Shown piece by piece: positions 24,112-38,998 of a stretch of DNA of 59,073 nucleotides. The position numbers were made by a program, and so were the translations under genes. The DNA is from Clostridiales bacterium (GTDB lineage Bacteria; Bacillota; Clostridia; Christensenellales; Aristaeellaceae), in contig SVGW01000008.1 of NCBI GenBank assembly GCA_015056125.1, positions 1 to 59,073 on the forward strand, written 5' to 3'. The notes beneath the pieces were generated by a model that had not been told where the DNA came from, made no database searches, and was given only the letters and a program-made list of their open reading frames with translations. The number at the start of each line of letters is the position of its first letter. The stretch's first letter is position 1.

Positions 24112-24125
24112 TTCTCAATTCCTCC

Positions 24126-24710
24126 TTACACCAGGCCGCTGAAGCCCATGAAGGCCACGGCCATCAGGCCTGCAGCCACCAGGGTGATGGGGAAGCCCTT
24201 CATGCAGGCAGGGATCTTGGAGCTTTCCAGCCGCTCCCGAACGCCCGCCATCAGCACGATGGCCAGCAGGAAGCCAAGGGCAGAGAAGGTGCCGTTGAGC
24301 ACGGCGTAGAGCATATTGTAAGCGTTGTTCACATTCAGGGTGGCCACGCCCAGCACAGCGCAGTTGGTGGTGATCAGGGGCAGGTAGATGCCCAGGGCGC
24401 TGTAGAGGGTGGGGCTGCTCTTTTTTAAGAACATTTCCACAAACTGCACCAGAGCGGCAATGACCAGGATAAAGGCGATGGTGCTCATGAAGGTGAGCCC
24501 CAGGGGCACCAGCAGCCAATTATAGATCATGTAGCAGAAGAAGGAAGCGATGGTCATCACGAAGGTGACCGCCAGGCCCATGCTCACGGAAGTGCCAACC
24601 TTGCTGGATACTCCCAGGAAGGGGCAGCAGCCCAGGAACCGGGAGAAGATAAAGTTGTTGGTGAGGATACAGCTGACCATAAACAGCAGGATATTCACGA
24701 TTTCATTCAT
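24126..24710 (-). CDS. rnfA: Rnf complex subunit A
   Basis: 194 aa, six membrane helices, with the NqrE/RnfA signatures SCILTNNFIFSRFLGCCPFLG and LIITTNCAVLGV-type (ITTNCAVLGV). The conserved Cys residues in the two half-repeats bind the [2Fe-2S] cluster that lies within the membrane in the Rnf/Nqr structures. Forms the inverted-topology pair with RnfE. Start overlaps the rnfE stop (ATGA). Confidence 0.97.
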   Translation of the reverse strand: MNEIVNILLFMVSCILTNNFIFSRFLGCCPFLGVSSKVGTSVSMGLAVTFVMTIASFFCYMIYNWLLVPLGLTFMSTIAFILVIAALVQFVEMFLKKSSPTLYSALGIYLPLITTNCAVLGVATLNVNNAYNMLYAVLNGTFSALGFLLAIVLMAGVRERLESSKIPACMKGFPITLVAAGLMAVAFMGFSGLV

Positions 24711-25345
24711 GCTGCGCCCGCCTCCTTACCAGCCTTTTTGGCTTCGATTTTTTTCACAATCAGGTTGAACAGCCCCAGCAGCAGGCCATAGGTGAGGAAG
24801 CCGCCGGAGGCCAGCACGATCAAAAGCATGGGTTCGTAGGAAGCGCCCAGCACATTCATGCCAAATACTGTGCCGCCGCCGATCAACTCGCGGATGGCAC
24901 CCATGATGGTGAGGGAGAGGGTAAAACCGATGCCCATGCCCAAGCCGTCTGCTGCAGAGGATAGCGGAGCATTCTTGCTGGCAAAGGCTTCCGCACGAGC
25001 CAGGATGATGCAGTTTACCACGATCAGAGGAATGAAGATGCCCAAGGCTTCATAGAGTGCGGGCACGAAGGCCTGCATCAGCAATTGGATCATGGTAACG
25101 AAGGTGCAGATGATTACGATAAATGCGGGAATACGCACCTTATCGGGGATGAAATTGCGCAGCAGAGATACTACCACATTGGAGCACACCAGCACGAAGG
25201 TGGCCGCCGCGCCCATGCCCAGGCCGTTTAAGGCGCTGGTGGTTACAGCCAGGGTGGGACAGGTGCCCAGCACCAGGCGGAAGGTGGGGTTTTCAGGAAT
25301 GATGCCGTTAAAGAGCACCTTTCCCAGATTCTTTTTTTCGCTCAT
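24707..25345 (-). CDS. rnfE: Rnf complex subunit E
   Basis: 212 aa, six membrane helices. ENPTFRLVLGTCPTLAVTTSA and PLIVVNCIILARAEAFA are the RnfE/NqrD marks, with the two Cys residues matching those of RnfA. Together they carry electrons across the membrane. It overlaps rnfD and rnfA by 4 bp each, so the genes are translationally coupled. The Lys/Ala-rich C-terminal tail is cytoplasmic. Confidence 0.97.
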   Translation of the reverse strand: MSEKKNLGKVLFNGIIPENPTFRLVLGTCPTLAVTTSALNGLGMGAAATFVLVCSNVVVSLLRNFIPDKVRIPAFIVIICTFVTMIQLLMQAFVPALYEALGIFIPLIVVNCIILARAEAFASKNAPLSSAADGLGMGIGFTLSLTIMGAIRELIGGGTVFGMNVLGASYEPMLLIVLASGGFLTYGLLLGLFNLIVKKIEAKKAGKEAGAA

Positions 25346-26265
25346 GCCTTCTTAGCCTCCTTATGATGGCCGTAAATCTTCCGGGGCAGGAAGCGGTCGA
25401 TGAGGGGGGATACAATGTTCATCAGCAGAATACCGTAGGTGACGCCTTCGGGATAGGCACCGAACTGGCGGATCAGGGAAATGATCAGGCCAATGCCAAA
25501 GGCGTAGATCACCTGGCCCCAGGGGGTGATGGGGGACGTGACATAGTCGGTGGCCATAAAGACAGCGCCAAAGAGCACGCCGCCGGAGAGAATGGCCATT
25601 ACGGGATCAGCGCCAAAGAGCCAAGAGAAAAGGAACACGCTGCCCACCATCACAACGGGGATGCGCCAGGTGACAGTGCCGGTAACAAGGAGGAAAAGGA
25701 AGCCCAGCAGGATAGCAATCTTGCTCACTTCGCCGATGGTACCGGGCACATTGCCAAGGAACAAATCCATCAGGGCGGAGTTTTTCAGCACCAGGGGCGT
25801 GGCGGTGGCCACGGCATCGGCGCCGGAAAAGAAGGTGGGGGCCACGTAGGTGGTCATATGCACAGGCCAGGAGGCCAGCAGCACGGCGCGGGCCGCCATG
25901 GCGGGGTTCAGGAAATTATCACCCAGGCCGCCAAAGAGCTGCTTGACGATAATGATGGCAAAGGCGCTGCCGATCATGGCCATCCACCAGGGCGCGTTGG
26001 CGGGCAGATTCAGGCCCAGGATCAGGCCGGTTACCAGGGCGGAAAGATCATTCACCCGAATGGGCTGCTTGGCGATCTTCTGCCAGATGGCTTCCGCCAG
26101 CACGGCGCTGGCCATGGAAATGAGCAGCACGGTAAGGGCGGGAATGCCAAAGGCGTATACGCCAAAGGCCGCCGTGGGCAAAAGAGAAATGAGCACATAG
26201 AGCATCAGCCGCTGGGTGGTTACCGGGCTATGCACATGAGGGGCGGAGGATAATCTTAAGGTCAT
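25342..26265 (-). CDS. rnfD: Rnf complex subunit D (flavinylated membrane subunit)
   Basis: 307 aa, about nine membrane helices, with GLGDNFLNPAMAARA and the covalent-FMN motif ADAVATATPL (acceptor Thr about residue 156), which is the RnfD form of the ApbE target. Homologous to NqrB, the presumed ion-translocating subunit. Overlaps rnfC upstream and rnfE downstream by ATGA. Loaded with FMN by the ApbE encoded at the head of the same operon. Confidence 0.96.
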   Translation of the reverse strand: MTLRLSSAPHVHSPVTTQRLMLYVLISLLPTAAFGVYAFGIPALTVLLISMASAVLAEAIWQKIAKQPIRVNDLSALVTGLILGLNLPANAPWWMAMIGSAFAIIIVKQLFGGLGDNFLNPAMAARAVLLASWPVHMTTYVAPTFFSGADAVATATPLVLKNSALMDLFLGNVPGTIGEVSKIAILLGFLFLLVTGTVTWRIPVVMVGSVFLFSWLFGADPVMAILSGGVLFGAVFMATDYVTSPITPWGQVIYAFGIGLIISLIRQFGAYPEGVTYGILLMNIVSPLIDRFLPRKIYGHHKEAKKA

Positions 26266-27602
26266 TTGCTTGCGCCTCCTTTCGCCCGGGCCTGGGCGGC
26301 GAGCTTATCTTTGGCAAACTTGAAGGAAGAGGTGAGCCAGCGCCGGGAGGGGCACACATAGGCGCAGGAGCCGCAGAGCATGCAATCCTGCACATGGAGC
26401 TTATCCGCAGCCTCAAAATTGCTGGCGTCGGCCGCTACCTTGATCTGATAGGGATTCAGCCCGATGGGGCAGGCGGCTACGCAGCGGCCGCAGTGGATGC
26501 AGGGGCTTTCATCCATGCTCTTGGATTCTTTTTCATTGAAGACCACGATGCCGTTGGTGGACTTGGCCATGGGAACGGCGGTGTTGGGGAGGCAAAGGCC
26601 CGTCATGGCGCCGCCAAAGAATACCTTGCCCACGGTATCGGAGAAGCCGCCGCAGGCGCCGATGGCATCCTGGGTGACGGTGCCGATGCGCAGGCGCAGG
26701 TTACTGGGCTCCCGCACGCAGCCGGTGACGGTGGTGATGCGGCTCACCAGGGGCTTGCCGTCGATGATGGCGTCGGCGATGGCGGCGCAGGTGCCTACGT
26801 TGAGCACCACCAGGCCCACGTCAATGGGCAATCCGCGGGTGGGCACCTGGCGGCCGGTGACGGCCTCGATCAGCTGCTTTTCGCCGCCCTGGGGGTACTT
26901 GGTTTTCAGAGCCTGCACGGTCACGCCGTCCCGGCCGGCAGCGGCCTTCTGCATGGCGGCGATGGCTTCGGGCTTGTTATCTTCAATGGCGATGATGCCC
27001 TTTTCCACCTTCAGGGCGCGCATCACGGCGCGAAGGCCGTCCACAATGCGCACGCTGTTTTCCAGCATCAGCCGATAGTCGGCGGTGAGGTGGGTTTCGC
27101 ATTCGGCGCCGTTGACCAGAATGGTATCGCATACAGCGCCTTCTTTGAAGGTGAGCTTCACATGGGTGGGGAAGGAAGCGCCGCCCATGCCGGTGATGCC
27201 GGCCTGCTGGATAGCGGGGATCACCTTGGCGGGATCCACATGCTCCACGCTGCCCAGGGGCTCAAGATCGCACCAGGTATCGGTGAAATCATTTTTGATG
27301 GTGACGGCCATCACGGGTTCGCCCCCCAGATAGGGGATGGCTTCCACGGCGGTCACTTCGCCCGATACGCTGGCATGCACGGGCACGCTCATAAAGCCGT
27401 TGGCCGTGCCGATCACCTGGCCCAGCTTCACCTGATCACCCTTCTTTACGCAGGGGGTGGCAGGAGCGCCGATGTTCATGGCCATGGAGATGGTGACGAT
27501 ATCGGATACATATTCCCGGGTTTCCAGATTGCGCGTGGGCATTTTGCCTTCATGCGCATGATGCAGGGGATGAATACCCCGCCGAAAGGACTTTTTCTGC
27601 AA
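26262..27602 (-). CDS. rnfC: Rnf complex subunit C (NADH-binding iron-sulfur subunit)
   Basis: 446 aa. N-terminal RnfC barrel-sandwich (GIHPLHHAHEGK), the FMN/NADH-binding SLBB region (GITGMGGASFPTHVKL, NGAECETHLTAD), then two [4Fe-4S] motifs, CIHCGRCVAACPIGLNP and CMLCGSCAYVCPSRR. It is the NAD+-reducing cytoplasmic end of Rnf. I start it at the TTG at 27602, which has GGAGG 8 bp upstream and lies 14 bp past the rnfG stop. The longer reading back to 27704 would run 89 bp into rnfG in another frame and is unlikely. Confidence 0.96.
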   Translation of the reverse strand: MQKKSFRRGIHPLHHAHEGKMPTRNLETREYVSDIVTISMAMNIGAPATPCVKKGDQVKLGQVIGTANGFMSVPVHASVSGEVTAVEAIPYLGGEPVMAVTIKNDFTDTWCDLEPLGSVEHVDPAKVIPAIQQAGITGMGGASFPTHVKLTFKEGAVCDTILVNGAECETHLTADYRLMLENSVRIVDGLRAVMRALKVEKGIIAIEDNKPEAIAAMQKAAAGRDGVTVQALKTKYPQGGEKQLIEAVTGRQVPTRGLPIDVGLVVLNVGTCAAIADAIIDGKPLVSRITTVTGCVREPSNLRLRIGTVTQDAIGACGGFSDTVGKVFFGGAMTGLCLPNTAVPMAKSTNGIVVFNEKESKSMDESPCIHCGRCVAACPIGLNPYQIKVAADASNFEAADKLHVQDCMLCGSCAYVCPSRRWLTSSFKFAKDKLAAQARAKGGASK

Positions 27603-27615
27603 TGCCAACGCCTCC

Positions 27616-29439
27616 TTAATTTTCAGAAGTGGATTTTTCGTAGGCCTTGTTGATGGCTGACACCACGGCTTCGCTGGTAACGGTGGCGCCGGTGACGGCG
27701 TCAATATCGGAAAGGGCCAGAGGCGCCGTTTTGCCGATGAACTGATCGATAAAGGCCTCTTCCTTTACCTTGCTGCCCAGCCCGGCGGTTTCGGCAAAGC
27801 GATCATCGCCAATAACCAGGGAGGTGATCTTATTGCCATCGAAGGAAACTTCCACCCACACGGGGCCATTGTAGCCTTTGGAGGAAGCGCTGAAGGCGCC
27901 TTCCTTGCCTGCAGCGGGCGCTGCGGTGGGAGCGGGGGTAGCTTCGCTGCCGGAAGCGCCGGTGGCCTTTTCATAAGCCTTGTTGATGGCTTTCACCACG
28001 GCTTCGCTGGTGATGGTGGCGCCGGTGAGCAGGTCCACGTCGCTGTTATTCAGGGGCGCAGCCTTGCCGATAAACTGGATCATGAAAGATTCTTCCTTGG
28101 CCCGGCTGCCAAAGCCATCCGTTTCGGCGAATTTTTCATTGCCTACGGACAGATAGGTGATCTTGCCTTCGGCGTCAAAGGCTACATCCACCCACACGGG
28201 GCCGGCAAAGCCCTTGGAGGAAGCGCCATAAATGGTTTCATCTGCAGGCATGGGAGGCATGGTGGGATCGGCAGCCACTTCCGCGCCCTGGGAAGCGCTA
28301 TAAGCAGCGTTCAAAGCATCCACCACAGCCTTGCTGGTAACGGTGGCGCCGGAAGCGGCATCGATATCGGAAAGGGAAAGGGGCATCTGCTTGCCGATGA
28401 ACTGCGCCATGAATTCGGCTTCCAGCACCTGGGTGCCGATGCCGTCGGTTTCGGCAAATTCTTCATTACCGATGGAGATGTAGATGATCTTGCCTTCGGC
28501 ATCAAAGGCGGCTTCCGCATACACGGGGCTCTTGAAGCCCTTCTGGGAAGCACCGAATACGGTGGATTCATCCGCAGGCTTTTCGGGCAGGGTCACTTCG
28601 TCGCCCCGGCCATTGGGGAAGAGAATGCCTTCCACCAGATCGGCAATTTTGTTCACAGCATTGGCCACGGCATTGGAAGTGATGGTGGCGGCGGTAATGG
28701 CGTCCACTGTGTTATCCGCCGGTGTGCCGCCGGCCTTGATCACCTTGACGGGAGCAGGCTTGCCAACGAACTGGGCAGCGAAGGACGGATCCTTGGCCTT
28801 AGCGCCCAAGCCGGCCGTTTCGGAGAAATTGGAGCCGCCAACAGAGATACCGGTGATGTTCATTTCCAAATCAACGCCGGCAATCACCTCGATGGGGCCG
28901 CCAAAGCCCTGCACGGTGATCTGGGCCACATAGCCCACTGCCTGGCCGTCCTTTTCGCCTATATAGCACCAATCAACCGCAGGTGCAGGAATCTGAGCGG
29001 CGGCATTCACCGCTTCCACTACGGCATTGGTGGTTACGGTAGCGCCGGAAATGGCGTCAATATCGGAAAGGGCCAAAGGCGCAGCCTTGCCAATAAACTG
29101 GGCGGCAAAGCTTTCTTCCAGCGCTGCCGCGCCAAAACCGGGAGTTTCGGCGAATTCTTCATTGCCGATCTTCAGGGCGGCAATTTTGCCTTCGGCGTCC
29201 AGGGAAAGCTCCACATGGACGGGGCCGGCAAAGCCCTTGGCGGAAGCGGATTTAACGCTCAAATCCATTTCCGTAAAGGTATCAGCGGCAGGAAGGGCCG
29301 CTTTCCGGGCGTTTTCTGCAGCGGCGATGGCCTGCGTGTCGATGGCGTCCTTCGTCAGCGCGTAGGTGCCGCCCAGGGCAAGCCCGGCAACCAAAGTGAT
29401 GATGAGCAGTACGAGCCAGGCGGGCAGTTGTTTTTTCAC
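27616..29439 (-). CDS. rnfG: RnfG-like subunit with five tandem FMN-binding domains
   Basis: 607 aa, about three times the usual RnfG (about 180-210 aa). One N-terminal membrane helix (8-25) places the rest outside the cell. Five tandem FMN-binding domains of about 110 aa each end in the ApbE target motif Dxx[S/T]GAT: Asp128-Thr134 (DAISGAT), Asp246-Thr252 (DAITAAT, Gly replaced by Ala), Asp360-Thr366 (DAASGAT), Asp469-Thr475 (DLLTGAT) and Asp580-Thr586 (DAVTGAT). Each domain repeats the blocks KGF.GPV, IGNE.FAET.G and AQFIGK.APL. Ala/Pro/Thr linkers separate the last domains. The GTG at 29439 follows GGAGG by 10 bp; the ATG at 29463 precedes that site. The gene leads rnfCDEAB rather than sitting between D and E. 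It may act as a flavin wire to an external acceptor. Confidence 0.93.
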   Translation of the reverse strand: MKKQLPAWLVLLIITLVAGLALGGTYALTKDAIDTQAIAAAENARKAALPAADTFTEMDLSVKSASAKGFAGPVHVELSLDAEGKIAALKIGNEEFAETPGFGAAALEESFAAQFIGKAAPLALSDIDAISGATVTTNAVVEAVNAAAQIPAPAVDWCYIGEKDGQAVGYVAQITVQGFGGPIEVIAGVDLEMNITGISVGGSNFSETAGLGAKAKDPSFAAQFVGKPAPVKVIKAGGTPADNTVDAITAATITSNAVANAVNKIADLVEGILFPNGRGDEVTLPEKPADESTVFGASQKGFKSPVYAEAAFDAEGKIIYISIGNEEFAETDGIGTQVLEAEFMAQFIGKQMPLSLSDIDAASGATVTSKAVVDALNAAYSASQGAEVAADPTMPPMPADETIYGASSKGFAGPVWVDVAFDAEGKITYLSVGNEKFAETDGFGSRAKEESFMIQFIGKAAPLNNSDVDLLTGATITSEAVVKAINKAYEKATGASGSEATPAPTAAPAAGKEGAFSASSKGYNGPVWVEVSFDGNKITSLVIGDDRFAETAGLGSKVKEEAFIDQFIGKTAPLALSDIDAVTGATVTSEAVVSAINKAYEKSTSEN

Positions 29440-29528
29440 GTGGTGTTTTCCTCCTTGCTTCATTTTCCTTGGGGAAAATGCAGTTTCTTCTCCTTCTTAT
29501 CTCAAAGGGCACGTGCCCTGGAAGAAAA

Positions 29529-29927
29529 TTAGAGATCGGGCATATCGGGGGGCGGGGTTTGGTTGATAAGGGTTAATTCCGCCTCCACCCGGTTGGGCAG
29601 GCAGATCACCCGGCTGCCCATGGCCCGAAGATAATAATTATCGGACGTCACCTGGCCCTGCTGCACGCACAGTTGATTCTGGCAGGTAGAATGGGCCATG
29701 TAAAATCCGTTTTCCGTCAGATGCAAAATATTTTTTTCGCCGGTAGCTTGCTCAATTTCAATATCCCGGCTTTGACCTAAGCGCTCTTCCCGATATAGCT
29801 CGCCATTTACATAGATGCGCACTGTGCCAAGGGGCGCTGTGCCAAATCCAGCCAGATGGGAAATCAAAAATACCAGGCCAATGAGCAATACCGCCCCCAG
29901 GAGAATGATCAAATCCTTTTTTTTCAT
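29529..29927 (-). CDS. NusG domain II-containing membrane-anchored protein
   Basis: 132 aa. One N-terminal membrane helix (about 5-27), then a small extracytoplasmic beta domain of the NusG_II type with VRIYVNGELY, HLTENGFYMAHSTCQNQLCVQQG and ICLPNRVEAEL. The paired Cys residues (CQNQLC) are conserved in this family and might form a disulfide or bind a cofactor. Genes of this family often sit beside rnf and apbE in Bacillota; their role is unknown, possibly helping flavinylation or assembly. It lies 10 bp after apbE and about 90 bp before rnfG, inside the operon. Confidence 0.88.
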   Translation of the reverse strand: MKKKDLIILLGAVLLIGLVFLISHLAGFGTAPLGTVRIYVNGELYREERLGQSRDIEIEQATGEKNILHLTENGFYMAHSTCQNQLCVQQGQVTSDNYYLRAMGSRVICLPNRVEAELTLINQTPPPDMPDL

Positions 29928-29936
29928 GGTGTTTCC

Positions 29937-31004
29937 TCAGTCATACGCCGTAGCACCCAGGGATTTGGCATAGGCGCTCATGCCGCTGCTCATTTTAACG
30001 GTGCCGTCCATAAGGGACCAGAGTGCCTCTGCATCCGGAATGCTTTCAATCAGCCGGAGGCCTTCTTCATATGGCATCACAAACAGGGTAGTGGTGAGAA
30101 AATCCGCCATCAGGGAAGAGGGACATACTACCGTAACGGCCTGAATATATTCGGCAGGCATCAGGGTTTTGGAATCGATGATGTGGTGGTATTTTTTGCC
30201 GTCCACGGTGTAGTAGCGCCAGTAATCGCCGCTGGTGACCACAGACAGCTGATCTACGTATAGTACATCCAGAATATCATTGGAAAAAAGAAGATTTTCC
30301 GCATCGGGGTCCTGTACGCTCACGCCCCAGTGGCGTCGCCCATCCATGGGCGCTTCCCCGGAGAGCACATTGCCCCCCAGGCTCAGCAGGAAAGAGGGCA
30401 TTTTTGCAGAAAGATATTCCTGCAGGGCATCCGCCGCCCAGCCCTTGGCCACCGCGCCGATATCCAGGCGAAGCAGGGGATCGGCGAAATAAACGGTGCA
30501 CTTTTCTTCATCCAGGATCACATCAGCCATATCCGTATGGAGGCGGGCTTCCAGTAATTGATCCATGGGCGGCAGGACGGCATTGGCAGGATTTTCCAAA
30601 CCGGCGGTGCGGTAATCGTGCCAGATGGAAAGCACGGCGCCCATGGCGATGTTGGTTTCCTGGCGGCCGCCGTCCCACATGCCCTTGCACCAGGCAATCA
30701 GATCATAGAGGGGCTTTGGAATTTCCACCGGGGCCTGGCCAGCATAACGGTTGATATACCATAGGTTATTGAGACCGGGATAGGAATTGTAAGCGTCAAA
30801 AATCTGATTGTATTCTTTCAGTAGGGCAATCGCCTCATCCGCCACTTCGTCAAAAGCTGCCTGAGAAGTGGCATAGCCCATGATAATAATTTCCGTATCA
30901 AATACACCCAGGTATGTATTGGAATATTTCCGGTATTCAGCGGCGCAGCCAGTGCTGCAGAAGATGAGTGCCAATACCAGAAGCACAGCAAAAATTTTTT
31001 TCAT
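29937..31004 (-). CDS. apbE: FAD:protein FMN transferase (ApbE), lipoprotein
   Basis: 355 aa. The signal peptide has a lipobox (STGC, lipid-attached Cys about residue 20), so it is anchored on the outer face of the membrane. ApbE marks: VFDTEIIIMGYA, LRLDIGAVAKGWAAD (FAD-binding), SLGGNVLS, the HHIIDSKTLMPA block and a metal-site Asp/Thr in SSLMADFLTTTLFV. It transfers FMN from FAD to Thr of Dxx[S/T]GAT motifs, here surely those of RnfG (five) and RnfD (one) encoded downstream. First gene of the rnf operon. The ATG at 31004 has GGAGG 11 bp upstream, a little long. Confidence 0.95.
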   Translation of the reverse strand: MKKIFAVLLVLALIFCSTGCAAEYRKYSNTYLGVFDTEIIIMGYATSQAAFDEVADEAIALLKEYNQIFDAYNSYPGLNNLWYINRYAGQAPVEIPKPLYDLIAWCKGMWDGGRQETNIAMGAVLSIWHDYRTAGLENPANAVLPPMDQLLEARLHTDMADVILDEEKCTVYFADPLLRLDIGAVAKGWAADALQEYLSAKMPSFLLSLGGNVLSGEAPMDGRRHWGVSVQDPDAENLLFSNDILDVLYVDQLSVVTSGDYWRYYTVDGKKYHHIIDSKTLMPAEYIQAVTVVCPSSLMADFLTTTLFVMPYEEGLRLIESIPDAEALWSLMDGTVKMSSGMSAYAKSLGATAYD

Positions 31005-31071
31005 CCGGGCAGCAGCCTCCATAAAAAATGAATCCACACAAGGCTGCAATATGGACAGCCTACTTTATATA

Positions 31072-31141
31072 ATTATAGCAAAGTTCCTTTTATTCTTCTG
31101 TGATATAAGTCACAGAAAACAGGCGGCATTTGGTGTATACT
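31072..31141. promoter_or_regulatory. Shared Crp-type site with two divergent -10 boxes (rnf operon and crp-mrp operon)
   Basis: A perfect palindrome TTCTGTGA-N6-TCACAGAA (31096-31117) contains the textbook TGTGA-N6-TCACA. On the plus strand TATACT (31136-31141) and on the minus strand TATAAT (31077-31072) both begin 29.5 bp from the palindrome centre. With transcription starting about 7 bp past each -10, the site would be at -41.5 for both directions, the class II activator position. The would-be -35 hexamers (CAGAAA and CAGAAG) are poor, as expected for activator-dependent promoters. The 5' leaders are about 56 bp (crp) and 61 bp (apbE). Confidence 0.75.
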
Positions 31142-31203
31142 ATCCCCGGCTTACAGAAAGCCCTTTTAACATGAAGAATTTTTTTAAGAAGGAGGGCTGC
31201 GGC

Positions 31204-31869
31204 GTGGAAATCACAGCTTACCTAAAGCAGATTCCCTTTACTGCCCTGGCCACTGAGGAAGAATTTCAGCTGATGGCCCAGAGCGCATATATCACTACTT
31301 TCGCTAAAGGCGAAGTGGTGCATACCCGCAGCCAGACGGAGTGCCTGGGGCTGGTGCTGGTGATTTCCGGTTCCCTGTGCGCCTCTATGATTTCGGATGA
31401 GGGAAAGCAGATTCTGCTTTATCGGCTGAGCCGGGGAGAAATGTGCTTGTTTATGGCCCGGTGCGTGCTGAATCTTTTAAGCTATGATGCCGTGGTGGAG
31501 GGCGAAAAGGCGGGGAGCATGCTGGTGATTCCCAAAGCTGCCACCGAGCGGGTGATGCAGAATATTCTGGTGGAAAATGCCATGAACCGGCTGGCGCTCC
31601 AGCGCTGCTCTCAGATCATGGGCGCCCTGGAAAGGGTGCTTTTTGCCAGGGTGGACAAGCGGCTGGCCTCCTGCCTTTTGCAGGAAGCGGAAAGCCGGGG
31701 CGGCAGGGAAGTGAAGCTCACGCACGAGCAATTGGCTCGGGATATTTCATCTGCCCGGGAAGTGGTGAGCCGGGTGCTGGGGAAATTTGCCGCGGATGGG
31801 CTGATCTCCCTGCATCGAGGATTGATTGTAATTGAAGATCCCGATAGGCTGCGGGGCTTTTTGAAGTGA
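31204..31869 (+). CDS. Crp/Fnr family transcriptional regulator
   Basis: 221 aa. N-terminal cyclic-nucleotide-binding-fold domain (about 15-115), dimer helix (about 120-150), C-terminal winged helix. The recognition helix SSAREVVSRVL puts Arg185, Glu186 and Arg190 at the same spacing as Arg180, Glu181 and Arg185 of E. coli CRP, which read TGTGA. The cAMP-binding block (GE...RSA) is absent, being replaced by GEMCLFMARCVLN, so the signal is not cAMP. Six Cys (47, 59, 81, 87, 135, 157) leave room for redox or metal sensing. The start is a GTG with GGAGGG 7 bp upstream. Head of the Mrp-like operon, divergent from apbE-rnf, and beside a matching palindrome. Confidence 0.92.
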   Translation: MEITAYLKQIPFTALATEEEFQLMAQSAYITTFAKGEVVHTRSQTECLGLVLVISGSLCASMISDEGKQILLYRLSRGEMCLFMARCVLNLLSYDAVVEGEKAGSMLVIPKAATERVMQNILVENAMNRLALQRCSQIMGALERVLFARVDKRLASCLLQEAESRGGREVKLTHEQLARDISSAREVVSRVLGKFAADGLISLHRGLIVIEDPDRLRGFLK

Positions 31870-31910: not shown

Positions 31911-32375
31911 ATGGCGGTACTGATGTATGTGTTCTGGGTGGTGCTCAATGGCCGTATCACATGGGAAATCGCATGGATTGGCGTGGCGGTTGTTGCATTG
32001 GCCATGTTTTTTTTGTGTGCCTGCTGTGAATGGTCGCTGAAAAAAGAATGGGGGCTGTATCGCTGCGTGCCCAGGATGATCGCTTATTCCGGGGTCATGC
32101 TCTGGGAGATTTTGAAGGCCAATTTGGCCCTGGCCAAGGTGGTGTATCACGAGAGGCCGGAGCCCATCGTACGCACGGTGCACACCAAGCTCAAAACGCG
32201 GCTTGGCCGGCTGATTCTGGCAAATTCCATCACCCTTACTCCCGGCACAATCACCCTGTCTCTCCGGGGCGATGAAATCAAAATTCACTGCCTCACCCCT
32301 GAAATGGCGGAGGGGCTGGATCACACCGTATTTGAAAAACGGCTGGAAAAAATTGAGGAGGCGCTCCATGGCTAA
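31911..32375 (+). CDS. mrpE: Mrp-type antiporter subunit E
   Basis: 154 aa. MrpE/MnhE family: two or three N-terminal membrane helices (VLMYVFWVVLNGRITWEIAWIG), then the conserved LANSITLTPGTITLSL segment. A structural subunit of multi-subunit Na+/H+ antiporters. The ATG at 31911 follows AGAGGGG by about 8 bp. 41 bp after the Crp-type regulator and overlapping mrpF by 8 bp. Confidence 0.92.
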   Translation: MAVLMYVFWVVLNGRITWEIAWIGVAVVALAMFFLCACCEWSLKKEWGLYRCVPRMIAYSGVMLWEILKANLALAKVVYHERPEPIVRTVHTKLKTRLGRLILANSITLTPGTITLSLRGDEIKIHCLTPEMAEGLDHTVFEKRLEKIEEALHG

Positions 32376-32673
32376 CGCGTATGCGATTTTGCTTCATGCA
32401 TCCCTGGCGGTGCTGGGGCTTTTGCTGTTCTTTGGATTGTATCGCTCCGTAAAAGGGCCCAACACTGCCGATCGGATCATCGCTGTGAATATGATCGGCA
32501 CCATCACGATCCTGCTGATCCTGTTGATCACCTTGATCACGGGAGAAGGATATCTGATGGATATTGCGCTGATCTATGCCATGCTCAGCTTTCTGGCGGT
32601 GGTGCTGCTGTGCAAAATTTACATTGGCATCTACCGGGCGCGCAAGGAAAAGGAGGAAAAGAAAAATGCTTGA
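32368..32673 (+). CDS. mrpF: Mrp-type antiporter subunit F
   Basis: 101 aa, three membrane helices, with the MrpF marks RSVKGPNTADRIIAVNMIGT and GYLMDIALIYAMLSFLAVV. The acidic Asp of the last block lies in the membrane and belongs to the proposed ion path. GGAGG precedes the ATG; overlaps mrpE and mrpG by 8 bp each. Confidence 0.93.
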   Translation: MANAYAILLHASLAVLGLLLFFGLYRSVKGPNTADRIIAVNMIGTITILLILLITLITGEGYLMDIALIYAMLSFLAVVLLCKIYIGIYRARKEKEEKKNA

Positions 32674-32989
32674 GTATATCCGCTTCGGTATTTTTGCTGT
32701 GCTGCTCCTTGCGGGGCTGCTTGTGGAAGTAACGGCGGTGCTGGGCGTGAGCCGCTTCCGTTATTCCTTAAACCGTATCCATGCCGCCGGCATGGGGGAT
32801 ACCATGGGGCTCCTGCTCATTGCCCTGGCCGCCATCGTGTATTTGGGGCTGAATGCTGTCACGGTAAAAATCATTTTCATCGTTGGCTTTTTCTGGCTCA
32901 CCGGCCCGGTATCCGGTCATTTGATCGGCAGGCTGGTCAGCGAAACGGACGAGCATTTTGATGCGGAGGCGAAGCTATGGAAGCGCTGA
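32666..32989 (+). CDS. mrpG: Mrp-type antiporter subunit G
   Basis: 107 aa, three membrane helices. MrpG/MnhG family signature RYSLNRIHAAGMGDTMGLLLI followed by KIIFIVGFFWLTGPVSGHLIGR. Starts inside the mrpF 3' end and overlaps the next gene by 13 bp, so the set is tightly coupled. Confidence 0.93.
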   Translation: MLEYIRFGIFAVLLLAGLLVEVTAVLGVSRFRYSLNRIHAAGMGDTMGLLLIALAAIVYLGLNAVTVKIIFIVGFFWLTGPVSGHLIGRLVSETDEHFDAEAKLWKR

Positions 32990-33249
32990 ATGTGATTTTG
33001 CTGGTATTTATTCTGGTGTGCGCCATAGCGGTGGGCAGGGCTAAGAGCCTGCTTTCCTCCGTGATCATTTTCATGTCGCAGGGGCTGGCCATGTCCATTG
33101 TGTGGATCATGCTGCGCTCTCCTGACCTGGCCATCACCGAGGCCGCCGTTGGCGCCGGTATTTCATCACTGCTCATGTTTGTCACACTCAAGAAGATCCA
33201 TGCGATCAAAGAAGAGGGGAGCCCGGAAGAGGATGCGGAAGAAGAATAA
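32977..33249 (+). CDS. MbhD/DUF4040-like subunit (detached MrpA C-terminal part)
   Basis: 90 aa, three membrane helices. The segment SPDLAITEAAVGAGISSLLMF matches the MbhD domain (DUF4040), which in Mrp antiporters is fused to the C-terminus of MrpA and in membrane-bound hydrogenases is a separate small subunit. It is separate here, as in Mbh/Mbs-type clusters. A charged tail of Glu and Asp ends the protein. Overlaps mrpG and the following gene. Confidence 0.88.
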   Translation: MEALNVILLVFILVCAIAVGRAKSLLSSVIIFMSQGLAMSIVWIMLRSPDLAITEAAVGAGISSLLMFVTLKKIHAIKEEGSPEEDAEEE

Positions 33250-34180
33250 GGCCCTGGCCCATCTTCAGGAATGGCTGGAGCATGGGGATAATGCCCTGGA
33301 AGTGGAAATGGAAGAGGAGCTGGAGGAAGAATTGCCTCCGGAAGCCCCGGAAGAAGATCATCTGGAGCGGGAGGAAAAAGAGGATCCCCGCCTCAATACC
33401 CCCAAAAAGCTGGAAAAACACCCGGCCTTTGAAAGATGGTATCGGGTGGCGGCAGTGGTGGTGTGCCTGCTGCTGGTGGGCATCCTGCTGTTTGCCGCCG
33501 TGCATATGCCCAATTTCGGTCAGGCGGATACTCTGGTGGACAGCGAGCTTTCCGCCTTCTATGTGGAGCATACCCTGGAGGAAACCGGCGCTGTCAATAT
33601 CATCACCGGCATCATCCTGGATTACCGTGGCTTTGATACCCTGGGCGAATCCCATGTGCTGTTCATCGGCGTGTGCACGGTGCTGCTGCTGCTGAGCATC
33701 AAGGGAGAAAAGGACCAGGAAAGGCGCATTTGGGAAGACGCCTACGATCGGAATTTTGAACCGCGCCACGATGAAATCCTTCAGACCTGCGCCCGAATCC
33801 TTACGCCTTTGACGCTGGTATTTGGCATTTACATTATCTTAAACGGCCATCTTTCCCCGGGCGGCGGTTTTTCCGGCGGCGCGGTGCTGGGGGCCGGGCT
33901 GATTCTGTATCAGAACGCCTTTGGCTATCAGAAAATCGAGCGCTTTTTCACCTTCCGTACATTCAAGGCGGTATCGGTGATGTCGCTTCTGCTTTATTCC
34001 TGCGCCAAGGGATATCATTTTTTTACCGGCGCCAATCATCTGGAAAGCGGCATTTCCCCCGGCGTGGCGGGGAATATCTTTTCCGCAGGCCTGCTTTTGC
34101 CCCTTAATTTTGTGGTGGGCTGCGTGGTGGCCTGCACCATGTATGCCCTGTATACCATGTTCAGAAAGGGGGATTTCTGA
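33233..34180 (+). CDS. mrpB: MbhE-MrpB fusion subunit with acidic N-terminal extension
   Basis: About 316 aa in three parts. Residues 1-70 are cytoplasmic and extremely acidic (long Glu runs, such as EMEEELEEELPPEAPEED). Residues 70-165 resemble MbhE, normally the end of MrpA (GAVNIITGIILDYRGFDTLGE). Residues 180-316 are MrpB/MnhB (LTLVFGIYIILNGHLSPGGGFSGGAVLGA). Both parts are membrane-embedded. The start is not certain: ATG 33233 overlaps the previous gene by 17 bp and has a GAGGGG 10-15 bp upstream; ATG 33200 is the alternative. The stop overlaps the mrpC start by one base (TGATG). Confidence 0.87.
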   Translation: MRKKNKALAHLQEWLEHGDNALEVEMEEELEEELPPEAPEEDHLEREEKEDPRLNTPKKLEKHPAFERWYRVAAVVVCLLLVGILLFAAVHMPNFGQADTLVDSELSAFYVEHTLEETGAVNIITGIILDYRGFDTLGESHVLFIGVCTVLLLLSIKGEKDQERRIWEDAYDRNFEPRHDEILQTCARILTPLTLVFGIYIILNGHLSPGGGFSGGAVLGAGLILYQNAFGYQKIERFFTFRTFKAVSVMSLLLYSCAKGYHFFTGANHLESGISPGVAGNIFSAGLLLPLNFVVGCVVACTMYALYTMFRKGDF

Positions 34181-34554
34181 TGCTGCAGCTGTTTTATGAG
34201 CATCTGGAGGAAGTGGTGGCCCTGGCGCTTTTCGGCATTGGCTTTATTCAGCTTCTCCTCAATAAAAACCTGATTAAGAAAATCATCGGCTTTTCCATGA
34301 TGGATAGCGGCATCTATCTCTTCCTGGCCTCCTACGGCTATCTGGAATCCCGCATTGCCCCCATTTATGTGGATGGCATCACCGATCCCAGCCTCTATGT
34401 GAATCCGCTGCCCGCCGGCTTGGTGCTCACCGGCATTGTGGTATCGGTGAGCGTGACCGGTGTAATGCTGGGGCTGACCTTGCGGCTTTATCAGCGGTAT
34501 CACACGTTGGATATTGATGAAATCGCCGAGCTTGTAAGAAGAGAGGGGAAATAA
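34180..34554 (+). CDS. mrpC: Mrp-type antiporter subunit C (NuoK-like)
   Basis: 124 aa, three membrane helices, homologous to NuoK. It keeps a membrane-buried Glu (YEHLEEVVALALFGIGF) and the LPAGLVLTGIVVSVSVTGVMLGL block. Part of the ion path between the antiporter-like subunits. Start codon overlaps the previous stop; the next gene begins 1 bp after its stop. Confidence 0.92.
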   Translation: MLQLFYEHLEEVVALALFGIGFIQLLLNKNLIKKIIGFSMMDSGIYLFLASYGYLESRIAPIYVDGITDPSLYVNPLPAGLVLTGIVVSVSVTGVMLGLTLRLYQRYHTLDIDEIAELVRREGK

Positions 34555-34555
34555 A

Positions 34556-36049
34556 ATGAAACTTTGGCAGAATCTTCCCCTTTTCCTCATCGTGCTGCCG
34601 CTGATGTGCGCGGTGATCTGCTCGGTGCTCAAGGGGAAAGCGGCCCGCGGTGTGATGACCGCATTGGCTTCCTTTGCCTGCGTGGCCATGAGCGTGATTT
34701 TGCTGATGACGGCAGGGCAGGGAAAGAGCTATATCTATGTAATGGGCGAAGTGGGCGCGCCCTTTGGGAATGAATTGAAGATCGGCGTGATTGAGGGCCT
34801 GATGGGCCTGGGCTTTTCCCTGGTGCTGCTCTTTTCGATCTTGGGCGGCTGGCGCAAGCTCACAAAAGATGTAGCCCCCCAGCGCATGAATTTGTATGCC
34901 ACCATGGTGTGCCTGCTGGTATCCGCCATGATGGCGATCACTTTTACCAACGACCTGTTCACAGCCTATGTGTTCATTGAAATTACCACCATTGCCGCCT
35001 GTGCACTGATTTGCTCCACCAATAAGGGGCGCACCTTCTTTGCGGCTACAAGGTATATGATCATGAATCTGTTGGGCAGTGGCCTTTTCCTGCTGGGCCT
35101 GAGCATTCTTTACTGCATCACAGGGCATTTGCTCTTCCCCCAATTGGAAGAAAGCGTGAAGGCGCTGATGGCGAAGGGGGAATACAAAATTCCCCTGTCC
35201 CTGGCGGCGGTGCTGATGACCTTGGGCGTGGGCGTAAAAAGCGCCCTGTATCCCTTCCATACCTGGCTGCCCAATGCATATGCCAGCGCAACGCCCACTT
35301 CCAGCGCCCTTTTGTCCTCCCTGATCTCCAAGATGTATATCTTCCTGCTGATCAAGATTTTCTTCCGGGCGGCAGGGGCGGAAATCTTCGCCCAGGGCAT
35401 TGGGGATGTATTGTTTGTATTCTCCCTGGTGGGCATCATCCTGGGCTCCGTTGACGCCATTCGGGAGCACAGCATGAGCCGCATGGTGGCCTATTCCTCC
35501 GTTTCCCAGATCGGGTATATTTTCCTGGGCATTTCCCTGGGCACGGAAGCGGGCATGGCGGCAGCGCTGTTTCATATTCTGGCCCATTCAGCAGCCAAAT
35601 CCATGCTCTTCCTTTCTGCCAATAAGCTCAGGGAAGTATCAGGCGGCAGCGACGCTTTCCGGGATATCCGCGCTTCCGGCCTCCGAGCGCCCCTGGCAGG
35701 ATTGGCATTTGGCGTTGGCGCCTGCTCATTGGTTGGCGTGCCCCTGCTGGGCGGCTTTTCCTCCAAAGTATATCTGGCCCAGGCGGGGCTTTTGCTGGGG
35801 GATTGGCGGACGACGGTGCTGCTTTTGACCCTGGCCCTTAGCACGGTGCTGAACGTAGCCTATATGCTGCGCACCACCCTTACCCTTTATCGCCCCGGCC
35901 AGCGCTACCCGCTCACCAAGAGCCCTCTGGCCAAGGACGCTCCCTTTACCGGCGCCATGATCGCCCTGGTATTGATTAATATCGTGCTGGGCGTGGGCGG
36001 CGGCCGTGTGATGGAACTGATTTACCAAGGCATTGCCATGTTTAACTGA
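34556..36049 (+). CDS. mrpD: Antiporter-like subunit 1 (MrpD/NuoN type)
   Basis: 497 aa, about 14 membrane helices. Carries the pump residues of the complex I antiporter family: Glu142 in VFIEITTIAACALI, Lys228 in GVGVKSALYPFHTWLP, Lys259 in SSLISKM, and a late Lys in HILAHSAAKSMLF. The sequence PNAYASATPTSSALLS is the MrpD form. It should move H+ against Na+ within the complex. AGGGG precedes the ATG. Confidence 0.92.
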   Translation: MKLWQNLPLFLIVLPLMCAVICSVLKGKAARGVMTALASFACVAMSVILLMTAGQGKSYIYVMGEVGAPFGNELKIGVIEGLMGLGFSLVLLFSILGGWRKLTKDVAPQRMNLYATMVCLLVSAMMAITFTNDLFTAYVFIEITTIAACALICSTNKGRTFFAATRYMIMNLLGSGLFLLGLSILYCITGHLLFPQLEESVKALMAKGEYKIPLSLAAVLMTLGVGVKSALYPFHTWLPNAYASATPTSSALLSSLISKMYIFLLIKIFFRAAGAEIFAQGIGDVLFVFSLVGIILGSVDAIREHSMSRMVAYSSVSQIGYIFLGISLGTEAGMAAALFHILAHSAAKSMLFLSANKLREVSGGSDAFRDIRASGLRAPLAGLAFGVGACSLVGVPLLGGFSSKVYLAQAGLLLGDWRTTVLLLTLALSTVLNVAYMLRTTLTLYRPGQRYPLTKSPLAKDAPFTGAMIALVLINIVLGVGGGRVMELIYQGIAMFN

Positions 36050-36081
36050 CGATACAGAAGAAGATAGAGGGGTTGAATGTC

Positions 36082-37536
36082 ATGACGATCTTGTTGCTGA
36101 TGCCTATTTTTCTTCCCATCCTGCTGGCGATCTGCTGGCGGCTGATGAAATTGGAAGGAAAGAAGCTGCACTGGGCCAGCATGGCCACCATGCTGGCATC
36201 CTCCGCCCTTGCAGTGGTGGCGGCGGTGCAGGAAAATGGCAGCCAGTTTTCCCTTGCTTGGACGAATACTTTGACCTTGACGCTGCGGGTGGATAACCTT
36301 TCTTCCATCTACCTTTTGCTCATTTCTCTGATTTGGCCCGGCGTGGGGCTGTATGCGGTGGAATATCTCCACCACGATCCCAAGCCTGCCCGGTTCTTCC
36401 TGTTTTACACTATTACCCAGGGCATTTTGAACGGCCTGGCCCTGAGCGGAAACCTGCTCACCTTCTATCTCTTCTACGAGGCCATGACGTTGCTTACCGT
36501 GCCCCTGGTGCTTCATAATATGGATCGGGAAGCGGTGGCGGCTGCTATCAAATACCTGATCTATTCCGTCATTGGCGCATCTGCCGCGCTGATTGGCATC
36601 TTCTTTGTGGGCTCTTTGGGCCAGAGCGGAGATTTTGCCAATGGCCCCATTTCTGCGCAGGCTCTGGCGGGCAAGGAAGGATTGGCCATGGGGATTTTCA
36701 TGGCCATGCTGGTGGGCTTTTCTGTGAAGGCGGGCATGTTCCCCCTCCATGGCTGGCTGCCCACGGCCCATCCTGTGGCGCCGGCCCCTGCCAGCGCCGT
36801 GCTTTCCGGCGTGATCACCAAGATGGGCGTGCTGGGCGTGATCCGCGTGCTTTATTCCGTGGCCGGCGTGGAAAGGCTGCGGGGTACCTGGGTGCAGATG
36901 GTGCTGCTGGCGCTTTCCCTGATCACGGTGCTCATGGGCTCGCTGCTGGCTTTTAAGGAAAAGCGCCTGAAAAAGCGCCTGGCCTATTCCTCTGTTTCCC
37001 AGGTTTCCTATGTGCTCTTTGGCCTGTTCACCATGACGAAGATTGGCTTTGTGGGGGCCATGCTCCATGTGATCTTCCATTCCCTGATGAAGAACACCCT
37101 GTTTATGGGTGCCGGCGCGGTGATCCATAAAACGGGCAAAACCAGCGTGGAGGAAATGGATGGCATGGGCAAGCGCATGCCCTTTACCTACGCTGCCTTT
37201 ACGATTGCTTCCCTTGGCCTGATTGGCATCCCGCCCACCGGGGGCTTTATCAGCAAGTGGAATTTGGCTCAGGGCGCTCTGGCTACCGGCATGAGCGCAA
37301 GCTGGATTGGCCCGGCGGCGCTGCTGATTTCTGCGGTGCTTACGGCGGCGTATCTGCTCACGGTGGTGATCCGCGGCTGCTTCCCTGGGGAAGAAGGGAA
37401 GATTGAAGAAAAATGCGAAGTATCCTGGAAGATGCTTTTGCCCATGGCCGTGTATGCGGCGCTGATTGTGGGGCTTGGTATTTTCTCCGGTGAAATGATT
37501 GGGGTGTTTGAAGCCCTGGCCGCTGCGCTGATGTAA
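36082..37536 (+). CDS. Antiporter-like subunit 2 (NuoM/MrpD type)
   Basis: 484 aa, about 14 membrane helices. Key residues are Glu133 (FYEAMTLLTVPLVL), Lys216 (FSVKAGMFPLHGWLP), Lys247 (SGVITKMGV) and the Lys in HSLMKNTLF. The PTAHPVAPAPASAVLSG signature is shared with subunit 4 below, as found in Mbh/Mbs and formate hydrogenlyase type complexes. The ATG at 36082 follows GAGGGG by 9 bp; the TTG at 36073 lies right against that site. Confidence 0.92.
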   Translation: MTILLLMPIFLPILLAICWRLMKLEGKKLHWASMATMLASSALAVVAAVQENGSQFSLAWTNTLTLTLRVDNLSSIYLLLISLIWPGVGLYAVEYLHHDPKPARFFLFYTITQGILNGLALSGNLLTFYLFYEAMTLLTVPLVLHNMDREAVAAAIKYLIYSVIGASAALIGIFFVGSLGQSGDFANGPISAQALAGKEGLAMGIFMAMLVGFSVKAGMFPLHGWLPTAHPVAPAPASAVLSGVITKMGVLGVIRVLYSVAGVERLRGTWVQMVLLALSLITVLMGSLLAFKEKRLKKRLAYSSVSQVSYVLFGLFTMTKIGFVGAMLHVIFHSLMKNTLFMGAGAVIHKTGKTSVEEMDGMGKRMPFTYAAFTIASLGLIGIPPTGGFISKWNLAQGALATGMSASWIGPAALLISAVLTAAYLLTVVIRGCFPGEEGKIEEKCEVSWKMLLPMAVYAALIVGLGIFSGEMIGVFEALAAALM

Positions 37537-37546
37537 GGAGGACGCT

Positions 37547-38998
37547 ATGCTGCTGTTAATCTGTGCGCTGCTGCCGGTGGTGCTGGGCGGCGCGCTTCCG
37601 CTTTTGAAAATTGAAAAGCGCGGCATCAGGATGGCCTATGTGTTTCTCACCACCCTGGCTACCTCCGTGCTGGCAGCTTTCCTGATTTTGAATCCGCAGA
37701 ATGCGTATATCGAATTCTTCCGGATTACGGATACCTTTGTGTGCGCCCTGCAGCTGGACGGCGCGGGCAAAGTATATCTGGGAATTGCGGCGCTGCTTTG
37801 GCCCTTGGCGGTGCTTTACGCCATCGAATATATGCGCCACGAAAAGCATGAGGGCAATTTTTTTGCCTGGTATATCGTTACTTACGGCGCGGCGGTACTG
37901 CTCTCTGCGGCCAAGAACCTGTTTACCCTCTATATTTTCTACGAATTCCTCACCCTGTGCACCATTCCCTTGGTATGGCATGAAAAGGATAAGGCCTCCG
38001 TCCGTGCGGTGCGCCGGTATATGATTTCCCTCTTTGGGGGCGCGGCCCTGGGCTTTGTGGCGCTGGTTGGGCTGAATTTCATGGGCGTTGGGGATTTTGT
38101 GCTGGGTGGGAAGGAAGGCTTCGTTCAGAATCACTGGCTTTTATTCCTGATGGTGCTTGGCTTTATTGGCTTTGGGGCCAAGGCGGCGGTGCTGCCCCTG
38201 TGCCGGTGGCTGCCTGCGGCATCGGTTGCTCCCACTCCGGTGACTGCGCTGCTTCATGCGGTAGCGGTAGTAAACGCCGGTGTGTTCGCTGTGCTGCGCC
38301 TTCTTTACTATGTAGCGCCCCCTGCTCTTTTGCAGGGCACCTGGGCCCAGCAGATCATGCTGGCCCTGAGCATGCTCACGATCCTTACCGGCTCCATGCT
38401 GGCCGTTCGAGAGCAGCATATGAAAAGAAGGCTGGCATGGTCCACGGTGAGCAATTTGAGCTATATGCTCTTTGGCCTGTCCCTTCTTTCTCCTCAGGGA
38501 ATGGAAGCGGGATTGGCCCACATGGTTTTTCATGGCCTGATGAAGATCATCCTTTTCTTCTGCGCCGGCGCTATGCTGGTGATGACCAATCGCACCCAGG
38601 TGCGCCAGGCCCATGGCCTGGGCCGGATGATGCCCGTTACCTTTGGGGCATATACCCTGGCCGGCGCATCCCTCATGGGCGTGCCGCCCCTGCCCGGCTT
38701 TGTGAGCAAAAATGGATTGGTGACGGCGGCCTTCCAGCAGGGCGGCTTCTGGCCCATGGCGGGCGCGGTGATTTTGCTCATTTCATCCGTGCTCACGGCC
38801 ATCTATATTTTCACGGTGGTATTCCCGGCTTTCTTTATGAAGCCGGTGCTGAAAACGGGGGAAGAAAAGCCCCGTGATCCTGGAATCTGCATGAAAACTG
38901 CGCTGATTGTGCTGTGCGTGCTGCTGGTGGCGGCGGGCACGTTTTCCGGGCAGATCATGGAAATGCTTGGCGGCATTGCCGGAGGGGGGATCGGATGA
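37547..38998 (+). CDS. Antiporter-like subunit 3 (NuoL-like signature)
   Basis: 483 aa, about 14 membrane helices. Glu133 (FYEFLTLCTIPLVW) and Lys212 (GAKAAVLPLCRWLP) are present. The next block is APTPVTALLHAVAVVNAGVF, the NuoL/MrpA form: a His (237) replaces part of the usual site and Asn243 stands where subunits 1, 2 and 4 have Lys. So this paralogue may have a different proton route. AAGGAGG lies 7 bp before the ATG. Overlaps the next start by 4 bp. Confidence 0.92.
   Translation: MLLLICALLPVVLGGALPLLKIEKRGIRMAYVFLTTLATSVLAAFLILNPQNAYIEFFRITDTFVCALQLDGAGKVYLGIAALLWPLAVLYAIEYMRHEKHEGNFFAWYIVTYGAAVLLSAAKNLFTLYIFYEFLTLCTIPLVWHEKDKASVRAVRRYMISLFGGAALGFVALVGLNFMGVGDFVLGGKEGFVQNHWLLFLMVLGFIGFGAKAAVLPLCRWLPAASVAPTPVTALLHAVAVVNAGVFAVLRLLYYVAPPALLQGTWAQQIMLALSMLTILTGSMLAVREQHMKRRLAWSTVSNLSYMLFGLSLLSPQGMEAGLAHMVFHGLMKIILFFCAGAMLVMTNRTQVRQAHGLGRMMPVTFGAYTLAGASLMGVPPLPGFVSKNGLVTAAFQQGGFWPMAGAVILLISSVLTAIYIFTVVFPAFFMKPVLKTGEEKPRDPGICMKTALIVLCVLLVAAGTFSGQIMEMLGGIAGGGIG

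Follow-up and report, generated by a model that had tools for sequence, protein, structure and literature searches.

A single Crp-type palindrome as a putative class II activator site shared by divergent Rnf and Mrp-like operons in one clostridial genus

The window analyzed in this work (the whole stretch of 59,073 nucleotides of contig SVGW01000008.1 from the Clostridiales bacterium draft assembly GCA_015056125.1) contains two divergent gene clusters, one encoding ApbE and an Rnf complex, the other a Crp/Fnr-type regulator and an Mrp-like complex, and a single Crp-type palindrome located midway between their predicted -10 boxes. From the anatomy and spacing of this region, its conservation, the co-occurrence of the site with the regulator gene and the complementary distribution of TTG-type -35 elements, we infer that one regulator dimer on the shared palindrome would act as a class II activator of both divergent promoters, a reading to which we assign a probability of about 0.7. 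The dimer would bind at -41.5 of two sigma70-type promoters and supply the missing -35 contacts on both sides, driving the ApbE-Rnf operon one way and the regulator's own gene with the Mrp-like operon the other, with positive autoregulation via the Mrp arm. Each subunit would be promoter-proximal (sigma/alpha-NTD) for one promoter and promoter-distal (alpha-CTD) for the other, and the roles of the subunits would swap between the promoters because the site is symmetric. The arrangement would have originated in one clade of the genus, where two formerly independent -35/-10 promoters were brought to a distance of 58 bp and lost their -35 elements, and where the regulator gene took up the leading position in the Mrp operon. 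The features under discussion are as follows:

31096..31117, no strand: 22-bp palindrome TTCTGTGA-TATAAG-TCACAGAA, putative site of the adjacent Crp/Fnr-type regulator
31072..31077, minus strand: TATAAT (ATTATA on the plus strand), -10 box of the ApbE-Rnf operon, predicted start at 31065
31136..31141, plus strand: TATACT within GTGTATACT, -10 box of the regulator-Mrp operon, predicted start at 31148
31204..31869, plus strand: Crp/Fnr-family regulator (P0001), 221 aa, GTG start, first gene of the Mrp operon, putative autoregulator
29937..31004, minus strand: ApbE (FAD:protein FMN transferase-like), ATG at 31004, Pfam ApbE with 2.5e-55, first gene of the Rnf operon
23323..29927, minus strand: NusG_II protein, protein with five FMN_bind domains (RnfG-like), RnfC, RnfD, RnfE, RnfA and RnfB (Pfam)
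31911..41079, plus strand: MrpE, MrpF, MrpG, MbhD, MbhE/MnhB fusion, MrpC and four Proton_antipo_M subunits (Pfam)

Gene order and strand suggest that the ApbE-Rnf genes form one operon and that the regulator and the Mrp-like genes form another. ApbE is preceded by a Shine-Dalgarno sequence GGAGG (plus-strand CCTCC, 31016-31020) and the regulator by AGGAGGG (31190-31196). The protein at the RnfG position carries five FMN_bind stretches in one chain (27619-29463, minus strand). The Mrp-like operon includes MbhD and an MbhE-MnhB fusion (32977-34177, plus strand) as well as four Proton_antipo_M subunits, which is more than a standard Mrp antiporter has, and it could encode an Rnf-linked variant complex.

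The core of the palindrome, TGTGA-N6-TCACA (TGTGATATAAGTCACA), spans 31099-31114, and the perfect inverted repeat extends to 31096-31117. Its center (31106.5) is 29.5 bp away from the first (-12) base of either -10 box, and the two -10 hexamers are 58 bp apart; with the transcription starts predicted by taking each -10 box as -12 to -7, the site falls at -41.5 for both promoters. An earlier, sequence-only reading of this DNA had placed TGTGA-N6-TCACA midway between TATAAT and TATACT at 29.5 bp from each, which is correct to the base, and its statement that neither promoter has a usable -35 agrees with the best TTGACA-like hexamers at 16-18 bp, which match at only 2/6 positions on the minus side and 3/6 on the plus side. 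What it did not mention is that the minus-strand -10 box is of the extended type (TTTGCTATAAT). A promoter scan listed neither of the two promoters. In the source genome (G000) the frame of the regulator remains open upstream through the palindrome, giving an ORF of 329 aa; the corresponding open frames are only 234 aa in G001 and 225 aa in G022, the two other genomes that carry this regulator, and because of these shorter frames and of AGGAGGG just before the GTG at 31204 we take the palindrome to be intergenic. The features typical of class II promoters, i.e. a site around -41.5 over the -35 position, a -10 box and a poor -35, are found in both directions in all three regulator-bearing genomes, as judged from predicted starts. 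The geometry, with one palindrome, 29.5 bp to each -12 base and 58 bp between the -10 boxes, would suit a shared site of the PrfA plcA/hly type.

The regulator belongs to the Crp/Fnr family: its Pfam domains cNMP_binding, HTH_Crp_2 and Crp score above the respective cut-offs (PF00027: 28.4 bits, cut-off 27.5; PF13545: 60.6, cut-off 27; PF00325: 30.7, cut-off 21). Its residues R185, E186 and R190 align with R180, E181 and R185 of the CRP recognition helix (CRP numbering as in PMC1274295), as expected for TGTGA-type specificity. That study links R180/E181, over the Crp/Fnr proteins it compares, to G3/A6 of the binding motif (PMC1274295), and R185/E186 of the regulator accordingly fit TGTGA. R185, E186 and R190 are invariant in the three close homologs, and the same R, E and R occur in 48, 49 and 49 of 49 distant homologs, so these nearly universal residues do not set the regulator apart from the wider family. 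No enrichment of a TGTGA-type site was found upstream of the 49 distant homologs (mean best score 6.65 vs 6.75 for shuffled sequences; one of these upstream regions has 50 bases and another 269), which indicates that autoregulation through such a site is not a trait of the whole family. Two distant homologs with a REV(V/I)TR helix (loci L005 and L127) have TGTCAA-N-TTGACA palindromes about 60 bp upstream, maybe the site type of that subgroup.

CRP contacts the cAMP phosphate through Glu72, Arg82 and Ser83; the aligned residues of the regulator are F83, Y94 and D95, and the NCBIfam CRP equivalog model gives 33.3 bits against a cut-off of 266. FNR senses oxygen with an Fe-S center bound by an N-terminal cysteine cluster, while the regulator has no Cys before residue 47. 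Of the 49 distant homologs, 48 have its C47, 47 its C81 and 45 its C87, and cysteines match these three positions also in the closest solved relative by sequence, the Crp/Fnr family structure 3dv8 (E-value 2.6e-38); C59 and C135 occur in the close trio and in none of the 49. From the conserved cysteines and the lack of cAMP-phosphate contacts one might guess that the signal is a thiol, a metal or the redox state. Besides the regulator, a single Crp/Fnr protein passes the Pfam cut-off in the draft genome; its helix differs (DRSGLSAE), and a protein similar to it by eye is present in G021, a genome of the same genus that lacks the palindrome. Among 54 loci around distant homologs (mostly 1.5 kb per side, with some duplicates), none matched an Mrp gene, and there were four weak Rnf-type matches: L016 and L123, which are one place, with FMN-binding repeats, and L117 and L121 with RnfB ferredoxin-like stretches. 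Within that short flank range, no Rnf-Mrp link is seen outside the trio.

Close homologs of the regulator (63-66% identity) were found only in G001 and G022 in a search of 150 relatives and 308 genomes of the family; both belong to the same genus as the source genome, and the next-best homolog elsewhere is 41% identical. The exact 22-bp palindrome occurs once each in G000, G001 and G022 and in none of the 26 other genomes of the genus, so that the presence of the regulator and that of the exact site coincide in the identical 3 of 29 genomes. Both -10 boxes stand at identical spacing from the palindrome in all three, and the check that the sequence-only reading had proposed for relatives, whether center-to--10 distances are kept, thus came out positive in every regulator-bearing genome. 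In the 70-bp block from one -10 box to the other, all 16 arm positions and all -10 positions are invariant in the trio, compared with none of the six N6 positions and with 4/13 and 7/14 positions of the inner spacers; GTGTATACT on the plus side and the extended TGnTATAAT on the minus side are each kept in 3/3. The leaders differ in length across the trio, which implies that indels are tolerated outside the block, and none is seen inside. Between identical arms, and with flanks that are not inverted, the N6 of G022 (CTCGCA, locus L003) reads exactly as the N6 of G001 (TGCGAG, locus L002) does on the opposite strand. This relation suggests an inversion between the palindrome arms; the chance of a match of six free bases is 1 in 4096.

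The comparison with sister loci that lack the regulator is based on 29 draft genomes of the genus (completeness 65-96%), in which absence of the regulator elsewhere in the genome is weaker evidence than its absence between ApbE and MrpE. ApbE was obtained from 28 of the 29 and MrpE from 26; divergent ApbE and MrpE genes within the flank were present at 20 loci, of which 3 have the regulator gene in between and 17 do not, and the 8 other ApbE loci were excluded from the pair table and their upstream regions examined separately. The -10 boxes in relatives were found by motif (GTGTATACT and ATTATA-N-CAAA), with a looser fallback for G021, whose promoters are therefore less certain. The same -10 sequences (TATAAT with TG one base upstream, and GTGTATACT) are present in 16 of the 17 regulator-less loci, the exception being G021, and the gap between them is 115-368 bp (trio: 58 bp). 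A hexamer starting with TTG, with exactly 17 bp between it and the -10 box, is found at 17/17 minus-side and 16/17 plus-side promoters of the regulator-less loci (33/34 in total, the sole miss being the plus side of G021) and at 0/6 promoters of the trio. The separately examined ApbE upstream regions are in line with this: 7 of 8 show TTG-N3, 17 bp and an extended TATAAT, and the region of G017 yielded no such promoter candidate.

TTG occupies 2.1% of positions in this DNA, and its lack at all six places of the trio is what chance predicts (0.88); what is informative is that the regulator-less loci have it, not that the trio lacks it. The TTG criterion was also picked after the sequences had been seen. 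If TTGACA matches at 17 bp are simply counted, there is little between the two groups (plus side: 3/6 in the trio vs 3-5 in regulator-less loci, with 2 in G021; minus side: 2 vs 3-4). Fisher values (0.0009, 0.0035 and 0.0012) ignore relatedness and overstate independence, as there are only three regulator-bearing genomes, all of one clade. With these reservations, TTG-type -35 elements and the activator site are mutually exclusive, on both sides at once, across the 20 loci. A TTG-type -35 only where the regulator is missing is the prediction of a class II activator that replaces -35 recognition, and the comparison across sister genomes thereby lends support to the proposal of the sequence-only reading that one site may serve as a class II site for both operons. 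Its further claim, that Rnf and the Mrp-like complex are locked to the same signal, would follow from such an arrangement. Two recurrent sequences were seen by eye: a block similar to CACAAGA...TTCGTACAAATATTGCAAATTT upstream of the Rnf-side -10 box in many of the 17 regulator-less genomes (L076, L083, L086), possibly an UP element or the site of another regulator, and a stretch like TGTAGAAA in the plus-strand leader, both with and without the regulator gene (L066, L070, L076).

The same -35 comparison bears on repression as an alternative, in which the regulator would sit on -31 to -52 and shut off both promoters or its own alone, and RNA polymerase would need no help to start from the -10 boxes. 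The perfect extended -10 box on the minus side in all three genomes would suit such unaided starts, the palindrome does cover the -35 position of both promoters, and a possible upstream plus promoter in G022 would be blocked as well. However, absence of TTG-type -35 elements only in the company of the regulator (0/6 vs 33/34) is unexpected for a repressor, which would also have no need of a distance to the -10 boxes that is equal on both sides and never varies; we therefore consider repression unlikely. Also under shared activation, the minus promoter may be active without the activator, given its perfect extended -10 box, which may leave room for repression.

A combination of both roles is likewise conceivable, in which the regulator would activate the Rnf operon and its own downstream start and repress an extra upstream start, or its own promoter at high concentration. 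In G022 (L003/L065) a plus-directed TTGACA-18-TATGCT lies just upstream of the palindrome, with a start that would fall at the site, and TATACT occupies the same place in G001; the precedent of Cmr, which from a single site is a dual autoregulator and an activator of the divergent gene (PMC5499769), speaks for this possibility too. On the other hand, the extra promoter is absent from G000, and the upstream TATACT of G001 has no hexamer with at least 4 TTGACA matches at 16-18 bp, which makes the dual role an improbable explanation, somewhat behind repression.

A chance palindrome between two ordinary promoters has to be considered because similar sequences are not rare. With up to 1 mismatch allowed, the 2.86 Mb draft genome contains the core pattern 31 times and the reversed control 11 times, and the 22-bp pattern with up to 2 mismatches is found at 21 places in 13 of the 29 genus genomes (4 control places), 10 of these 13 being regulator-less and the places in G013 and G017 having 1 mismatch. 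With 0 mismatches, however, the core pattern is found at 2 places in the draft genome and the 22-bp form at one, and across the genus the exact form is confined to one copy per regulator-bearing genome (0/26 others). The other 30 core-like places in the genome all lie inside open frames of at least 178 aa, which is a weak test alone, as the palindrome studied here also sits in a 329-aa open frame; none is a plausible second target, with at most 3/6 -10 matches at the right positions. For near-matches in the genus 14 non-trio places were taken, 12 of which, checked at the right spot, likewise had at most 3/6 -10 matches; L053 and L062 were read at a neighboring spot, and 4 further places were outside this check. 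Given the palindrome, both -10 boxes at this one spacing are expected with about 1e-4 (the squared frequency of -10-like hexamers, 139/14070 positions in regulator-less intergenic regions), or 5e-5 if the site's own flanks are shuffled. In a sample of 396 genomes of the order, to which G022 does not belong, the palindrome flanked on either side by 21 N and then a -10 box (up to 2 mismatches in all) is found in two genomes, G000 and G001, each time at this locus, with 0 cases elsewhere and 0 for the reversed control. Together with the invariant arms around a free N6, these figures make coincidence very improbable. The most far-fetched interpretation, that the palindrome (an 8-bp perfect stem with a 6-base loop) forms a hairpin in a transcript, for instance as a bidirectional terminator, can be put aside almost completely, as it lies upstream of both predicted starts and no T run follows the stem on either strand. 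A terminator scan of 30700-31600 found none, leading us to reject the terminator reading, and Rfam at the gathering threshold reported two tRNAs and nothing else.

Activation of both operons by one dimer would have consequences for the polymerases. The predicted starts are 83 bp apart, so that by class II geometry the alpha-CTD of one polymerase would lie in the DNA of the other; simultaneous full occupancy may thus be hindered, and the operons may compete for the dimer while sharing its signal. In bidirectional E. coli promoters with a shared -10, an activator of one direction tends to repress the other (PMC12825309), a point against activation both ways; the -10 boxes are separate here, unlike in those promoters.

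That one site can serve divergent promoters is a principle already known from PrfA and Cmr. Judging by its title, a systematic plasmid study by El-Robh and Busby (2002, Biochem J 368:835) concerns divergent promoters that the global regulator CRP of E. coli activates at one target; in comparison, the present case is a natural locus with a local regulator that has no cAMP-phosphate residues. The closest parallel is PrfA of Listeria, whose boxes are centered at -41.5 in target promoters, with one box common to divergent plcA/hly, and whose gene is also expressed from the plcA promoter, which closes a positive loop (PMC3443378). The likeness comprises a Crp-like regulator type, one palindrome, a position of -41.5, predicted here, and two divergent promoters. 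The PrfA box is however tTAACanntGTtAa and not TGTGA-N6-TCACA, its targets as described there are virulence genes and prfA has two promoters of its own too, whereas the regulator studied here is the first gene of one arm, its putative targets are Rnf and Mrp, and sister species without the regulator exist in which the two promoters are independent. Cmr of M. tuberculosis (cmr-rv1676) is a Crp/Fnr-type autoregulator that activates the divergent gene from a single site independently of cAMP; it differs in being a dual regulator with more than one start of its own, and the text on it does not use "class II" or "41.5", so that a symmetric geometry is not described there under these terms (PMC5499769). 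HcpR of Desulfovibrio shares the motif type (wTGTGAnnnnnnTCACAw), an R180/E181-type helix and the lack of a canonical FNR-type cysteine motif (PMC1274295), but its main targets are hcp/frdX, while the regulator here adjoins Rnf and Mrp. One paper on the rnf operon deals with NifA sites at rnf. No report of this regulator or of one-site Rnf-Mrp co-regulation was found in a literature search with most subscription journals outside its scope.

The history of the switch depends on G021, which lacks the regulator (locus L067, contig C80, between MrpE at 8294 and ApbE at 8577) but groups with the trio in one clade in the trees of ApbE alone (support 88/82) and of MrpE alone (100/99). For the joined Rnf proteins (a set without G001, and with a truncated ApbE of G022) a regulator-bearing pair apart from G021 is rejected (p-AU 0.02) and G021+G022 is preferred. 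For the joined Mrp proteins (a set without G022, and with the last Mrp protein of G021 truncated) such a pair is not rejected (p-AU 0.15), G021+G000 is preferred and G021+G001 is rejected (p-AU 0.004). The Rnf and Mrp sets thus disagree on the position of G021, and loss of the regulator in that genome is favored but not settled by these protein trees. The regulator is missing from all 25 remaining genomes of the genus, so the simplest history has it acquired at the root of this clade and perhaps lost again in G021. The G021 promoters are unlike either state (GATAAT with TTGCCT at 17 bp on the Rnf side; TGCTATACT), and the activator may have been lost there and both promoters rebuilt. We tentatively put forward, at somewhat less than even odds, a full switch within one genus: two -35/-10 promoters would have been fused into a symmetric node through the gain of a local activator in place of both -35 elements, after which G021 would have lost activator and site and re-evolved self-sufficient promoters with new -10 boxes and TTGCCT, the node itself coupling Rnf, a ferredoxin-driven ion pump, and the Mrp-like transporter to one dedicated regulator.

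The sequence feature is well supported, and what appears to be new is an unusually clean before-and-after for one-site divergent control. The route by which a promoter comes to depend on an activator is difficult to trace when unrelated promoters are compared; the same two divergent operons with and without the activator in one genus provide a ready series of this kind, suited to the study of -35 loss, of class II activation from both faces of a dimer and of competition between two polymerases. If the proposed mechanism is true, Rnf and the Mrp-like transporter, two ion-translocating energy complexes, would be tied to one local signal.
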